From Candidatus Stygibacter australis (GTDB taxonomy: Bacteria; Cloacimonadota; Cloacimonadia; Cloacimonadales; TCS61): a stretch of DNA of 33,984 nt. The translations under genes and the position numbers were made by a program. Within the stretch, counting starts at the first letter, position 1. Every line of letters starts with the position of its first letter. The stretch is from the NCBI GenBank assembly GCA_030765845.1, contig JAVCDJ010000064.1, forward strand, positions 1 through 33,984. The letters are read 5' to 3'. Of the stretch, positions 12,170 through 23,344 are shown in pieces. The notes below the pieces were generated by a model. The model ran no database searches. It was not told where the DNA came from and worked only from the letters and a program-made list of their open reading frames with translations.

Positions 12170-12314
12170 TTAGGATAGGCCAATTAAATTATTCACCGAT
12201 GTGGAATAATTTATGCTACATAAAAAAGTGGAGATTACTGAAAGAGGAATAGCAACATGAATAAATTATTTTAGTAATTAGAAGAAAATATTAAATCTGA
12301 ATATGGAGGAAATA

Positions 12315-15300
12315 ATGACTCGTAAAGTCATGTTATTATCATTTTTACTGCTTGTATTTTCACTACAGGGAGTTTGGCATAATGTCAACGAAACTAACAG
12401 TGAGACTTTCACCTGTAACCAATTAGAACAAGGTATCACGCAGATCACATTCCAGCTTGACGGTTTCGAACTCGAATCTTTATCAAGATCTGGTGAATCT
12501 TTTCAGAAGATCTCACATCCTGAAGCAGAAAGTATGCTGCTTACAGGTATGCCCGATCTTCCCCAGTTCACCACCCTGATAGCTGTTCCTACTGATGGAG
12601 AGATAAATATTGATTACACTTTTACATTCGGTGAAACTCTTTCAGATATTTCCATCTATCCTACTCAGGAACCTGAATATGAGTTTCTGGAAAATAAAGA
12701 TATATTTTCACGTAATAGTGAATATTATAATAATGGAACCCTTTTCCCAGAGGAGAAAGTGATAACGGCAAGTCCGGCTGTAATGCGGGACTTGCGGATT
12801 ATCCCGGTCAGCTTTTGTCCCTTCACTTATAATGCTGCTACCCGTGAACTATCCATAGCAAGCGAGATCCAGGTTCAGATAAGCACAACGGGAACTCAGC
12901 ATCTCATGCGAAACACTATCTCCAGAGCTTTTGAACCGATTTATAAAAGTATGATCCTGAATTATGAAGATTTTATCGGCAGACCGGAATATCAGCAGCC
13001 AACCCTTGTTTTTATCATAAGTGATCAGGAAGATGCCCTGGAAACTCTGGAATATTTAAAAGACTGGAAACGCCAAAAAGGGTATAATGTAGTAGTTGCT
13101 ACTACATCAGAAACAGGAACGACCACTAATTCAATCAAAGCCTGGATCCAGGACGCCTACGACAACTGGGAAAATCCACCTGAATATATCTGTTTCTGTG
13201 GCGATGCTAATGGTTCTTACGAACTTGCTACCTATGGTAATGGCGATCATCCCTATACTGAACTGGCTGGAAATGATTTTCTAGAAGATGTTATTTCCGG
13301 AAGACTCAGTTTTGGTGATATCGGCACATTCCAGGTAATGGTCGCAAAAATACTGAATTATGAAAAAGAACCCTTTATGGGTAGTACGGATTGGTATGAG
13401 CATGCTGTTTTAGCTGGAGATACAGGTATTTCCGGACCATCCATGCAGTTTACCTGTGAATCAATAAAAGAAATGATGCTTGATTTTCCTGATAATTATA
13501 ATACAAGTGCCAGCTTCACTGAGATCTATGGCGGCAGCTTTCCTTCCTCTATCAATGCAGCCCTTAATAACGGTGTAAGTTATATGGTATATCGCGGCTG
13601 GATGGGTATGAGCGGATGGAGTCCCGGTAATCAAACAAATAGTTTCATGCTCCCTTTTGCTACCATACTTACCTGTGGCACCGGAGGCTGGACAGGAGGG
13701 ACTTCTGACAGTGAAACTTTTTCTCGGATGGGTACTGTCACTAATCCTACAGGAGCTATAGGCACTGTGGGCACGGCAACTGCCGGTACACACAGCTGCT
13801 TTAATAATGCCTTGACCTTAGGAATATATGGTGGTATATTCCGGGATAGTATTTTCACAATGGGAGGAGCTACTACCCGGGGAAAATATTATCTTTATGA
13901 AACCTTCCCTCAAAATCCTTCCGGATTTGTGGAAACTTACCATAATTGGGCAAATCTTATTGGAGAACCAAGTCTCTGCCTGTGGACTGATGTGCCGGAA
14001 GAGATGCATATAACTTATGATTCTCAGGTTGCACTGGGGACTAATTACTTATCAGTAAACGTCAAAGATGCCAGCAATACCCCGATCCCCGGAGCCTGGG
14101 TAACGATCTCTAATGAATCAGAAAGCTTTTTTACTACCGGTTTTTGCTCAGAAACTGGTGATATACTTCTTGATATCGCGAGTAATGAAATTGGTGAATA
14201 TGATATCGTGGTTACTTATCATGACTTTATCCCTCATTTAGGTACTATTGAAGTCCAGGCAGCTGACCAGTATGTGGATGTTACAGGAATGCAATTTGAT
14301 GACAGCGCTGGAAATGGTGATGGGATATTAAATGCCGGAGAAACCGTAGTAATAATACCCACACTCACAAATCTGGGTTCTCAACCGGTTAATGATGTAA
14401 ATGTAACCTGCCAGTTAATTCACAATTATCTTAGCTTAAATACCACGGAAATGTCTTATGGTAATATCGCTTCTGGAGCTACTGCTGAACCTGCTGCAGG
14501 AATTGAAATGACAATTTCTCCCGCTGCCTGTGGTGGAATGCAGGGTTTACTTGTCCTTAATGTATCTGATGATAATGGTAATAACTGGACTAACTGGTAT
14601 TATCTTAATATCACTGGAGTAAATCTCTTTGCCTCTGAATATGAGGTAGTGGGAGGTGGTATCCTGGAACCCACAATAAGCTCCGAAATTTTCTTTACTC
14701 TGGAAAATATGGGACAATTGAGTTCTACTGAACTTACTGCTGAATTGACCTGCCAGAACCCTCGCCTGATCATTACTGACGGCCTGGCAGTGATTGATCC
14801 TATAGCTTCCGGAGGAAGTGGAAATAATAGTAATGATGTATTTGGGGTAACTCCCTCAGCGACAATAATCCCTGGCTCACAATTGACTCTGGAAATCCAT
14901 CTTTCCAATGCTGAAGGATTCAGCCAGACCTGTCATATCAATGTGCCCGTAGGTGAAGTAGAAGTCACTGATCCCTTTGGTCCGGATGAATATGGCTACT
15001 GGTGTTATGATGATGGAGATCTTGGGTATGAGAACTGCCCTGAATATAACTGGATAGAAATTGACCCTGACCTGGGTGGAAATGGTACTATAATCAACCT
15101 TAATGATAGTGGAGATAATGGAGACAGCGAAGTGATTGCTTTGCCAGATGAATTTACTTTCTCTTTCTATGGAGTACAATATGACCAGATCACTGTCTGC
15201 TCAAATGGCTTTATAGCACCCGGTGAACATGATGCACCAAATTTCATGAACCATCCCCTGCCCGGACCTGAAGGTCCCAGCCCCATGATAGCAGCTTTCT

Positions 15301-17060
15301 GGGATGATCTGGCAGTTAATAGCGGAAATGTATGCTATTATTATGATGATATCGAACATATCTACGTTGTGGAATGGAGTGAATGTAATAATGGAGATAC
15401 CGGAGCAGATGAGACTTTCCAGATTATCCTCTATGATCCTTTATATTACCAGACAATGACCGATGACTCCCTGATAAAGATACAGTATATGGACATTACT
15501 AATAACAACGCGGGTTCATATCCTGCTAACCATGGACAATACTGCACTGTGGGTCTGGAAAGTGAAGGGGCTCAGATGGGCATGACTTATACATTCAATA
15601 ACACCTATCCAGATGCTTGTAAAGAACTGGGAAATGAAATGGCTATCCTCTTTTCACCACCTCAGTATCCTGAATTTGGACCCTATCTGGAGATGGTTGC
15701 TTATGACTATATCTCAGGTGATGATCAATTCATTGAAGCTGGTGAGACAGTAGATCTATCTATCACAATAGCCAATCAGGGTGCAGAAGCAGCCTCGGAT
15801 GTTAGTGTACAAATGGAAATTGACGATCCCTGGTTCACCTTGATTGATGATGAAGCCACTATTGATATCCTTCCAGCAATTGGAACTATTGAGCTGATCG
15901 ATGAATTCAGCTTTTCCGTAGATGAGCAGGTTCCTGATGATTATAATTTCACTGTTACCTTTAATATGACGACTGTAGATAATGCCTGGTTCTCAAGCAT
16001 CTCTCTCACTGCCCACTGGATAAATGCCTTCCTGGTTGATCAGGACAGCATTGATGTAGTTCTGGGACTGAACCTTACCACTGAGCGTACTTTTAATCTT
16101 TCCAATACTAGTGCCAATCCGGTGGATTATTACCTTAGAATGGATGATCAGCAACCGACAGGCAGAGATATATCCGGCTCTTTTGTGCATTGCGATTCCA
16201 CAGTATTTCATCCAGGAGAAGAGCAGCTCTGGCGTTTTATTGTGCATAATGGCTCCTCCTCAAATGAATGGGTAAATGATGTCTGGCTAACCTTCCCTCC
16301 GGGTGTAAGCGTTGTTAGCGCAACTAATGCCTATGGCGGAACCGGAGGATATATGGAATGGGACGGAACTACCGGCGATGATGTTACTGTGAACTGGCAT
16401 GGCGAAGAACCGAATGGCTGGGGAGTTCTTAGAGATGATGAAACTGCTGGCTGGAATGTTGTTGTTCAGATAAGTGAAAATTTTGCCAGTGATATACAGG
16501 TAGGCTGGGAAGTCGGCGGTGATGGTTATGGCAACCCTCCTCACAGTGTTATTGGTGAACTGAATTTCAATTTTCCTATTCAATGGATCAACCTGAACAC
16601 ATCTTATGGAAGTCTTGAACCAGGTGAAAGTGATGACATCATTATCTATTACGATACTAATGATATGGAAACAGGTGAATATGACTGCTCCATCAATATC
16701 CTTTCTGATAGCTGGTTCTCTAAAATTGTAAATACACACCTCACTGTGGTCACAGTGGATGAAGATGATAATGATATTCATAAGCTAACACAGCTTCTGG
16801 GTAACTATCCGAACCCATTTAATCCCAGTACAGCTATCAAATTCAATCTGGCGGAAGATTCGTTTACAGAGCTTAATATTTATAATTCCAAAGGGCAAAA
16901 GGTATGCACTCTGCTTCAGGAACAGGTTTCAGCAGGTACTCATGAAGTAAACTGGAATGGCAGAAATGATAATAACAGATCTGTCAGCAGCGGGGTTTAT
17001 TATCTGAAGCTTAAAACCGGTGATGCAAACCTGACCCAGAAACTTCTGCTTCTTAAATAA
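12315..17060 (+). CDS. Gingipain-like peptidase C25 family protein, multidomain, possibly inactive
   Basis: A 1581-residue exported protein. ATG 12315 is preferred over ATG 12303 because GGAGG lies immediately upstream of it, inside the longer version. A signal peptide (1-19) is followed by a propeptide-like region (about 20-225) and a C25 caspase-like fold (about 229-555: PTLVFIISDQEDALETLEYL, KGYNVVVATT, YICFCGD, ILTCGTGGW, HNWANLIGEPSLCLWTD). Cys454 in LTCGTGGW fits the catalytic position. The expected GHG histidine motif is replaced by Y426-RGWMGMSGW. Next come a carboxypeptidase-regulatory-like domain (about 570-650), CARDB-like Ig repeats starting NGDGILNAGE, a nidogen-like or anchor domain (about 892-1115), more Ig-like domains, and the sorting domain (about 1494-1581). 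If active, the family cleaves proteins outside the cell. A strong terminator follows. The sorting-domain DNA is nearly duplicated at the end of the gene finishing at 22770. Confidence 0.88.
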   Translation: MTRKVMLLSFLLLVFSLQGVWHNVNETNSETFTCNQLEQGITQITFQLDGFELESLSRSGESFQKISHPEAESMLLTGMPDLPQFTTLIAVPTDGEINIDYTFTFGETLSDISIYPTQEPEYEFLENKDIFSRNSEYYNNGTLFPEEKVITASPAVMRDLRIIPVSFCPFTYNAATRELSIASEIQVQISTTGTQHLMRNTISRAFEPIYKSMILNYEDFIGRPEYQQPTLVFIISDQEDALETLEYLKDWKRQKGYNVVVATTSETGTTTNSIKAWIQDAYDNWENPPEYICFCGDANGSYELATYGNGDHPYTELAGNDFLEDVISGRLSFGDIGTFQVMVAKILNYEKEPFMGSTDWYEHAVLAGDTGISGPSMQFTCESIKEMMLDFPDNYNTSASFTEIYGGSFPSSINAALNNGVSYMVYRGWMGMSGWSPGNQTNSFMLPFATILTCGTGGWTGGTSDSETFSRMGTVTNPTGAIGTVGTATAGTHSCFNNALTLGIYGGIFRDSIFTMGGATTRGKYYLYETFPQNPSGFVETYHNWANLIGEPSLCLWTDVPEEMHITYDSQVALGTNYLSVNVKDASNTPIPGAWVTISNESESFFTTGFCSETGDILLDIASNEIGEYDIVVTYHDFIPHLGTIEVQAADQYVDVTGMQFDDSAGNGDGILNAGETVVIIPTLTNLGSQPVNDVNVTCQLIHNYLSLNTTEMSYGNIASGATAEPAAGIEMTISPAACGGMQGLLVLNVSDDNGNNWTNWYYLNITGVNLFASEYEVVGGGILEPTISSEIFFTLENMGQLSSTELTAELTCQNPRLIITDGLAVIDPIASGGSGNNSNDVFGVTPSATIIPGSQLTLEIHLSNAEGFSQTCHINVPVGEVEVTDPFGPDEYGYWCYDDGDLGYENCPEYNWIEIDPDLGGNGTIINLNDSGDNGDSEVIALPDEFTFSFYGVQYDQITVCSNGFIAPGEHDAPNFMNHPLPGPEGPSPMIAAFWDDLAVNSGNVCYYYDDIEHIYVVEWSECNNGDTGADETFQIILYDPLYYQTMTDDSLIKIQYMDITNNNAGSYPANHGQYCTVGLESEGAQMGMTYTFNNTYPDACKELGNEMAILFSPPQYPEFGPYLEMVAYDYISGDDQFIEAGETVDLSITIANQGAEAASDVSVQMEIDDPWFTLIDDEATIDILPAIGTIELIDEFSFSVDEQVPDDYNFTVTFNMTTVDNAWFSSISLTAHWINAFLVDQDSIDVVLGLNLTTERTFNLSNTSANPVDYYLRMDDQQPTGRDISGSFVHCDSTVFHPGEEQLWRFIVHNGSSSNEWVNDVWLTFPPGVSVVSATNAYGGTGGYMEWDGTTGDDVTVNWHGEEPNGWGVLRDDETAGWNVVVQISENFASDIQVGWEVGGDGYGNPPHSVIGELNFNFPIQWINLNTSYGSLEPGESDDIIIYYDTNDMETGEYDCSINILSDSWFSKIVNTHLTVVTVDEDDNDIHKLTQLLGNYPNPFNPSTAIKFNLAEDSFTELNIYNSKGQKVCTLLQEQVSAGTHEVNWNGRNDNNRSVSSGVYYLKLKTGDANLTQKLLLLK

Positions 17061-17129: not shown

Positions 17130-17484
17130 CGTTAATGATGATGACTATATAAAAAGAGAAGCTTATTAACCACAGAGTACTTAGAGGATTATTTTTTTTA
17201 ACATGAGCTTTTTTTATTCCGAAGTGTACCAGTTCGGTCTGTAATTAAGACGAGATTATTGTGTAAACTGGGCAGTTATATTCCGATCTTTGGGGATATA
17301 TTTAGAAATATTGAATTTAAGAAACTATTTAATAAAAAAGCTGATCATCTAATTATCCAGTTATGCTAAGGTTCTTTATAAATGTCAGATATGAATTTCA
17401 GGTAAACATTTTTACTCTGCATAACCCTTTATAACAATATCTACATAAATATAGAGAATGTCTTATACAATAAATTTATATTTT

Positions 17485-17686
17485 CTGGCACCCCCCTGTT
17501 TTGAACACGACATTATCCCATAAAATGCTATTAAATATATAGTTACTTATCAATTTAATTTGAAATTATTCTTACCCTGAAAGGGTTGTACTATACTAGC
17601 CATGGGTTTCAACCCATGGCTAGTATTGTAATGCCCATTCAGGGCAATTAATGTCAGCTTCTATTTTAATTCCGGGGGGATGCCAG
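17485..17686. mobile_element. MITE-like insertion with inverted ends and 10-bp direct repeats
   Basis: The element begins CTGGCACCCCCC (17485-17496) and ends GGGGGGATGCCAG (17674-17686). These ends are inverted copies apart from one inserted base. The direct repeat TTTATATTTT flanks it at 17475-17484 and 17687-17696; two bases of boundary are ambiguous because CT follows both copies. The paralogous spacer at about 22996-23012 reads AATAAATTATGATTCCTATTGAC with no insert, which is the empty site. The element is 202 bp and encodes no transposase, so it would have to be mobilised in trans. It contains the nested palindrome 17575-17645. The family is not recognised; a target duplication of about 10 bp is compatible with IS4-type transposases, but this is only a suggestion. 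Confidence 0.75.
17575..17645. repeat. Large nested palindrome inside the inserted element
   Basis: The core ACTAGCCATGGGTT (17595-17608) and AACCCATGGCTAGT (17611-17624) form a perfect 14-bp stem around a 2-base turn. Outer arms CCCTGAAAGGG (17575-17585) and GCCCATTCAGGGC (17633-17645) pair imperfectly, so the 71-base segment could extrude a cruciform or fold as an RNA hairpin. No T tract follows. Confidence 0.9.
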
Positions 17687-17700
17687 TTTATATTTTCTAT

Positions 17701-17717
17701 TGACAGTAAAACTGTCA
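17701..17717. promoter_or_regulatory. Operator-like inverted repeat
   Basis: TGACAGT (17701-17707) and ACTGTCA (17711-17717) are perfect inverted repeats separated by AAA. The first arm overlaps a TTGACA box at 17700-17705. The paralogous site at 23013-23029 keeps the structure with one mismatch (ACTGCCA). This would suit a dimeric repressor or activator; no candidate regulator is identified. Confidence 0.4.
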
Positions 17718-17763
17718 TTGACTTAGTTTTGTGATTAATGAATGAACTTCAATAAAAGAGGAA

Positions 17764-17892
17764 ATGATGACTGAGACAAATAATGGACATAAAATGGTGT
17801 TAACTCTTTCTCTCTCTGTATTTAGGCTCTTCAAGCACAAGAAAGAAACGGCCAGAATTTATTATCTCCTGAGGAAATTAAAGTTTGGCTGA
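17764..17892 (+). CDS. Possible 42-residue ORF with CT-repeat tract
   Basis: ATG 17764 (or ATG 17767, 5 bases after AGAGG) opens a frame reading MMTETNNGHKMVLTLSLSVF, then a basic tail RLFKHKKETARIYYLLRKLK, to TGA 17890-17892. In the second spacer the homologous frame (23076-23192) has a 6-base in-frame insertion. Its CT run is two bases longer, which shifts the frame after LTLSLSL and gives a different, shorter tail. The good ribosome-binding site argues for translation; the frame change and lack of a known family argue against a conserved protein. A leader peptide or a remnant are alternatives. Confidence 0.22.
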   Translation: MMTETNNGHKMVLTLSLSVFRLFKHKKETARIYYLLRKLKFG

Positions 17893-18044
17893 GCAGGCGA
17901 TGTCATCATGGGACATGGAATTAGTTAGTAGAATAAGTGATTTCGGTATCGAAAATAGAAAGTTGCCTAAATACTGAAACTGACCTCAGCAAGATAGGCA
18001 ACCAACATAAACACACACAAGCTAAAATAATATAGGAGTACATA

Positions 18045-22836: not shown

Positions 22837-23344
22837 GTTTAACGTTAGCTGTTTTTATTCCGAAGTACAACAGTTTCTGACTGAAATTAATAAGAGATTC
22901 CTTAAAATGCCAGATATGAATTCCTGGTAAACATTTTTACTCTATATAACCCATTATAACTATATTCATATAAATGAAGTTAATGTGTTATACAATAAAT
23001 TATGATTCCTATTGACAGTAAAACTGCCATTGACTTAGTTTTGTGATTAATGAATGAACTTCAATAAAAGAGGAAATGATGACTGAGACTGAAACAACTA
23101 ATGAACATAAAATGGTGTTAACTCTCTCTCTCTCTCTGTATTTAGGCTCTTCAAGCATAAGAAAGAAACGACCGGAATTTATTATCTCCTGAGGAAATTC
23201 AAGTTTGGCTGAGCACATTGTCCGCACAGTTAACCATAAAGCCGCTCTGCCAGCCGAAACCGACAAAGCAGCCAATACAAAGCAATGATAAGTTAACCAA
23301 AACCAGTATTATGTCAAGCTGGATGATCTTTTTAGGAGGAAAAA
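22837..23344. other. Spacer upstream of gene A' (duplication copy 2)
   Basis: Homologous to the first spacer over ATTCCGAAGT, CCAGATATGAATT...GGTAAACATTTTTACTCT, TTATACAATAAA and the conserved block at 23009-23215. It lacks the 202-bp insertion (empty site about 22996-23012). The CT run in the block is 16 bases instead of 14. After 23215 the sequence is unlike copy 1 and ends in a strong TAGGAGGA ribosome-binding site for gene A'. No independent gene is supported. Confidence 0.7.

Follow-up and report, generated by a model that had tools for sequence, protein, structure and literature searches.

The 33,984-nucleotide stretch of Candidatus Stygibacter australis DNA analysed here (the window; contig JAVCDJ010000064.1 of a 3.8-Mb assembly) carries a MITE that was very probably mobilised in trans by a divergent IS4-clade insertion sequence (IS), inserting 3 bp upstream of a promoter's -35 hexamer. 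This reading draws on features that are legible in the DNA: inverted ends, target duplications (TSDs), an empty site, a 3-bp offset, a variable distal cut, tandem re-insertion, an autonomous copy that obeys the same rule, and an IS4 motif. Insertion anchored on TTGACA appears to be a habit of the family in Cloacimonadota, almost always 3 bp before the hexamer. An earlier description made by a model from the letters alone (the sequence-only reading) did not recognise the family, whose transposase is assigned here to the IS4 clade, and missed the -35 box that lies 3 bp beyond the TSD.

The window element and its empty site

The element is a non-coding insert of 202 bp (17485-17686, + strand) bounded by the inverted ends CTGGCACCCCCC (17485-17496, + strand), which matches the family ends and faces away from the promoter, and GGGGGGATGCCAG (17674-17686, + strand), which by the family pattern is of the TTYCGG type and faces the promoter. 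Repeat comparison places a perfect 10-bp TSD, TTTATATTTT, at 17475-17484 on the left and 17687-17696 on the right, a length at the short extreme of the family range of 10-18 bp. The ends and duplication are thus as first described. No ORF of at least 80 aa lies inside the element, in keeping with the claim that it has no coding sequence. Beyond the right, promoter-proximal TSD copy, CTA (17697-17699) forms the 3 bp that separate the TSD from the target -35 hexamer TTGACA (17700-17705, + strand), which lies outside the element. The sequence TAGTTTTG (17724-17731, + strand) follows 18 bp after TTGACA and matches the TAnnTTTG -7 box that is enriched in pooled targets, which gives a window promoter of the form TTGACA-N18-TAGTTTTG.

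The same promoter arrangement occurs at a paralogous, uninterrupted site (22895-23215, + strand; TTGACA at 23012-23017 and TAGTTTTG at 23036-23043). Window positions 17369-17476 correspond to 22895-23001 and positions 17688-17895 to 23000-23215; when one TTTATATTTT copy is deleted, the window flanks align without a break to ACAATAAATTATGATTCCTATTGACAG of this empty site near 23000. Because the flanks minus one TSD copy are continuous with the empty paralogue, the insertion most likely occurred after the local spacer duplication, as the sequence-only reading had proposed. That reading also allowed that the flanking repeat might prove to be part of a longer duplicated segment, which it is not.

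A 42-codon ORF with a ribosome site (17764-17892) lies downstream of the targeted promoter; the frame of its counterpart in the paralogous spacer (23076 onwards) is broken, and the ORF may accordingly represent a leader or relic instead of a gene. Window positions 12303-17060 and neighbouring sequence encode a gingipain-type C25 protease with a sorting domain; it belongs to a cluster whose proteins carry type IX secretion sorting tails (Por_Secre_tail). Several members of this cluster are tandem duplicates. Dispersed direct repeats of 34-37 bp (692-725/7886-7919, 94% identical; 7486-7522/20205-20241, 89%) are unrelated to the MITE and are, we presume, probably repeats within sorting-domain coding sequence.

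A multi-copy family with common ends and variable interiors

A DNA search with the element gives 21 matches in the host genome and, in two congeners, 45 and 26; one copy often accounts for several of these matches. Other genomic copies, as the sequence-only reading anticipated, thus exist. Four genomes, from two genera, contain the end pattern GGGGGATGCCAG 14, 60, 18 and 58 times; six other genomes lack it, and a reversed control of the pattern has zero occurrences. The host genome and three relatives therefore share a multi-copy family that is short and non-coding, with terminal inverted repeats, TSDs, multiple copies and an autonomous element with the same ends. The MITE identity first suggested for the window element is upheld by true TSDs, by the uninterrupted paralogue and by an autonomous relative whose ends match. 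Direct repeats flank other copies too; the 10-bp length that had been looked for is not constant and varies from 10 to 18 bp.

Copies have common ends and differ in their interiors. The nested 71-bp palindrome of the earlier description exists (17572-17647, 82% over 76 bp), and it is best read as secondary: alignment with longer copies indicates that the window copy apparently lacks some 110 bp that separate a pair of CCATGGGTT..AACCCATGG hairpins in those copies; fusion of the hairpins would have produced the long imperfect palindrome. The window element would thus derive by internal deletion from a parent type of 311-323 bp. Together with its TSDs, the element folds as single-stranded DNA far better than shuffled sequences do (z -8.6).

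Palindromes of this kind could also point to a REP/BIME-type repeat that is moved by a Y1 (RAYT) transposase, with the flanking repeat incidental. The CCATGGGTT/AACCCATGG palindromes, their short matches elsewhere in the genome and a sub-threshold resemblance to an RNA family would fit such an origin. Against it stand the inverted ends and the 10-18-bp duplications, and three copies (L060, L041 and L045) keep the ends and the target rule with interiors that lack this palindrome. A REP/RAYT origin is thus very improbable, and we rejected it on the TSDs, which are present also in copies without the palindrome. An Rfam search returned sub-threshold matches to the palindrome only; its segment 17573-17619 (- strand) resembles Acido-Lenti-1 RNA (RF01687) at 27.3 bits, below the gathering threshold of 37. 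It is conceivable that mobile palindromes figure among the catalogued small RNAs. Loci L009, L010, L011 and L016 and similar G000 loci give short matches to the CCATGGGTT..AACCCATGG palindrome alone, and these lone palindromes are possibly an independent REP-like repeat of the host genome.

Tandem or nested arrays occur at L040:2671-3294, L150:4008-4689, L180:165-866 and L091, with a second element between the first element and the promoter.

Insertion 3 bp upstream of TTGACA

In many copies, TTGACA stands beyond one end at a distance of 12-19 bp. Pattern scans gave 41 and 108 hits, with none in the reversed control, and TTGACA offsets plotted as a histogram fall almost wholly within 11-22 bp, in a set some of whose loci had been retrieved by patterns that include TTGACA. 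An unbiased set was therefore assembled from loci fetched by end sequence, with TTGACA unused and a direct repeat of at least 10 bp required at both ends. Its 40 elements have AT-rich TSDs of 10-18 bp, mostly 12-15 bp; TSDs shorter than 10 bp are excluded by construction, and the scan with the rule applied likewise gives mostly 12-15 bp. TTGAC starts exactly 3 bp past the TSD in 31 of the 40 and at no other offset from 0 to 8 in any of them. Three of the remaining nine have -35-like hexamers at +3 (CTGGAC, TTGCCA or TTGGCA), and six are tandem or nested members whose flank is another element. Some rows share one promoter, which leaves about 30 independent sites; the binomial probability of the fixed offset, from the local TTGAC frequency and with independence assumed, is about 4e-78. 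The distance from the proximal TSD edge is constant at 3 bp, and the distance from the element end to the box varies with TSD length, with a mode of 16.

Since TTGACA lies beside almost every copy, it could belong to the element itself, with a longer true mobile unit that carries its own promoter. The uninterrupted paralogue has this TTGACA and the sequence downstream of it without any element, the direct repeat stops before TTGACA, the sequence between end and TTGACA differs at each copy, and the sequence past TTGACA is locus-specific. The chance that this is correct is negligible, and TTGACA as part of the element was rejected on its presence at the empty site. Survivorship alone would instead have near-random insertion in AT-rich DNA, after which selection keeps copies upstream of promoters. 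The TSDs are indeed AT-rich, and selection against insertions in genes must act, but all 31 TTGAC-flanked unbiased copies have the same 3-bp offset, for which there is no evident selective reason. Second elements of arrays have moreover entered the same target stretch as the first (L040, L150 and L180). Survivorship as the sole cause is accordingly most unlikely. Because of these second insertions there also seems to be no sign of target immunity.

Evidence that the targets are promoters

In pooled targets, TAnnTTTG is enriched at a spacing of 16, 7.7 sd above other positions and with z 6.2 against shuffles; we take this motif to be the Bacteroidetes -7 box. TATAAT as a -10 box has no enrichment in the same pool. 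A ribosome site and gene start within 170 bp follow 11 of 27 proximal flanks versus 2 of 27 distal flanks; that such starts are seen at only 11 of the 27 proximal flanks counts against the promoter reading. The pooled sites give a TTGACA-N16-TAnnTTTG architecture, and each element flags a promoter, so that -35 boxes are marked in a mostly uncultured phylum.

An autonomous copy and its relatives

A transposase gene with related ends, which the sequence-only reading had suggested looking for, is present in the host genome. Pairing of ends yielded no element longer than 700 bp, and the long copies came from searching with repeated target sequence. The autonomous copy (L056:1298-2789) is 1492 bp long and has the same terminal inverted repeat core. 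Its target reads TSD ATTTTGTAATAA, then ATA, then TTGACA, which is the same +3 rule, and a decayed 853-bp copy follows that rule as well. The L056 transposase is a DDE enzyme with an intact YREK motif and has 465 aa from a TTG start or 443 from an ATG. An L056-type or closely related transposase presumably moves these MITEs. One intact IS copy was found in the host genome, and a transposase search of two MITE-rich genomes, G001 and G015, gave no hit; the mobiliser may for these reasons be a different but related IS that these assemblies have lost or do not include. The assemblies are fragmented, and many contigs end within elements.

Transposase relatives with 27-42% identity occur across Cloacimonadota and more sparsely in KSB1, Calditrichaceae, Planctomycetota and others. 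At transposase 3' ends that were found by protein alone, TTGAC lies within 75 bp in 27 of 44 distinct cases, nearly all 14-46 bp after the gene; KSB1 contributes one of the TTGAC-bearing ends. In a Planctomycetota copy the element end is more distant from the gene, and TTGAC follows 18 bp beyond that end. The +3 offset is seen directly in the complete relatives L194 and L229, and in a few relatives the offset comes out as 2 or 4, according to the end position chosen. Distant relatives in Bacilli, Neomarinimicrobiota and Zixiibacteriota have no TTGACA. Plasmid records contain no relative, phage records one weak match and viral contigs two weak matches. Beyond the IS end at L197 and L223 there is an operator-like TTGACA...TGTCA repeat array with no obvious gene start.

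In about 25 of 29 unbiased cases it is the TTYCGG-type end of the MITE that faces the promoter. Autonomous copies almost always have the transposase 3' end toward the promoter, with L211 an apparent exception; the promoter-facing end of L056 is of the other type, and L194 and L207 carry the TTYCGG type there. Orientation set by end sequence alone was therefore rejected, since the MITEs mostly present the TTYCGG end and the L056 IS the opposite one.

Transposase class

PF01609 (DDE_Tnp_1) is found in 15 of 15 aligned transposases, none of which matches PF06782 or another Mutator-like Pfam family, and the NCBIfam hits include no IS256, ISLre2 or ISKra4 model. The Y(2)R(3)E(6)K motif is invariant in all 15 (Y320, R323, E327 and K334). 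In L228, with catalytic residues assigned by alignment, the D-D-E spacings are 88 (D104-D192) and 135 (D192-E327). Both motif and spacings fall within the IS4-family limits given in the text of PMC2266710, Y(2)R(3)E(6)K and D(60-110)D(100-150)E. The predicted structure of this relative (pLDDT 88) has a Tn5-like fold, with Tn5 as best and sole significant PDB match (E 8e-14, TM 0.62-0.66). None of the curated IS4, IS701, IS1634 and IS1380 models reaches its cut-off (best 73 bits versus at least 100), and TSDs of 10-18 bp, with a mode of 13-15, overlap yet exceed the IS4-family range of 7-13 bp. The transposase is called IS4-clade on its YREK motif, D-D-E spacing, PF01609 match and predicted Tn5-like fold, and is placed outside the named subgroups because all curated cut-offs are missed.

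Proposed mechanism and target recognition

The transposase would pair both GGGGG(G)ATGCCAG-type ends and capture target DNA where a promoter begins on its upstream side. The promoter-proximal join would always fall 3 bp before the -35 hexamer, the distal one a further 10-18 bp upstream (mostly 12-15 bp), and gap repair would duplicate the stretch between both joins. What is duplicated is DNA that already lay in front of the promoter, so the gene would keep its promoter together with the adjoining upstream stretch, and damage to the host would presumably be reduced. The fixed position of the proximal cut, against a distal cut that floats, points to a complex held from the -35 side. This combination is not usual among DDE transposases and calls for a mechanical explanation.

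We infer that the hexamer is what is recognised, and the balance tips slightly toward a transpososome that reads the -35 sequence directly; promoters would then be the main sites left once insertions within genes had been lost. A polymerase-guided reading, which differs only in what is recognised, would have the transposase contact promoter-bound holoenzyme (e.g., sigma region 4 or the alpha C-terminal domain) and cut at the upstream edge. The promoter-like second box at the expected spacing, the gene starts downstream of targets and the cuts just outside the -35 hexamer agree with it, and such a model is published for Mutator-like elements (PMC3942029). However, the hexamer is nearly always TTGAC(A) and the -7 box weakly conserved, which is more than polymerase occupancy would seem to need, and L197 adjoins a repeated TTGACA array without an obvious gene. 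Polymerase guidance is thus possible at somewhat less than even chances, and direct reading is, on the near-invariant hexamer and weak -7 box, somewhat more likely than docking on RNA polymerase or sigma. The fullest version of the direct reading is an evenly balanced proposition: an undescribed IS4-clade family in which promoter targeting evolved independently of Mutator-like transposons, with proximal strand transfer locked 3 bp from the -35 box, distal transfer floating over 10-18 bp and a transposase that has its own -35-reading function.

Comparison with known systems

These elements resemble bacterial MITEs that are moved in trans by IS in being short and non-coding, with inverted repeats, TSDs, many copies and an autonomous partner with similar ends; they differ in their strict position relative to promoters. 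Yeast Ty3 is a retroelement guided by polymerase III transcription factors, and its mechanism and enzyme are unrelated to those described here. The likeness to Ty3 lies in integration at a fixed short distance from promoters, with genes spared (PMC3942029).

Among IS4-family elements, the text of PMC2266710 gives TSDs of 10-13 bp for the IS4 subgroup and 10-12 bp for IS231. The present elements share with these subgroups, as that text describes them, the YREK motif, the D-D-E spacing, a single ORF and a length of about 1.5 kb, and their TSDs overlap the subgroup lengths of about one helical turn. They differ in missing all curated IS4 cut-offs, in ends that depart from the subgroup signatures as given there, and in TSDs of up to 15-18 bp. 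The same text attributes to its Figure 3 a 'spectacular' target-arm specificity of some IS4-subgroup elements and, that figure on target arms aside, does not describe promoter targeting. The literature searched, a scope that leaves ISfinder and Figure 3 of PMC2266710 aside, holds no report of promoter targeting by IS4-type elements.

Promoter-seeking integration in bacteria has hitherto been described, in the literature searched, for Mutator-like transposases. TnGBS/ISLre2 (p-MULT 3) and the ISKra4 group (p-MULT 4) are Mutator-like DDE transposons whose insertions lie about 16 bp from the -35 box on its upstream side (PMC3942029), mostly in one orientation and with 8-9-bp duplications (PMC3942029; PMC4701971). 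The TnGBS-type transposase is PF06782 (PMC4701971), and holoenzyme-guided targeting was proposed for TnGBS by analogy with Ty3 (PMC3942029). The elements described here likewise occupy a set place upstream of the -35 box, at the promoter's upstream edge and mostly in a single orientation, with a modal end-to-box distance of 16 against about 16. In contrast to the Mutator-like enzymes, their transposase belongs to PF01609, with the YREK motif and a predicted Tn5-like fold; their TSDs are 10-18 bp rather than 8-9 bp, and what is constant is the 3-bp proximal offset. Targeting works like that of TnGBS in an element outside that family. Promoter-upstream insertion, known for Mutator-like transposons, thus recurs in an unrelated clade with a different geometry and is apparently convergent; with promoter-seeking also in the Tn5/IS4-like clade, a strategy that spares genes seems to have evolved convergently. 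As the Tn5/IS4-like structural class is well understood, how a transposase finds a promoter becomes testable.
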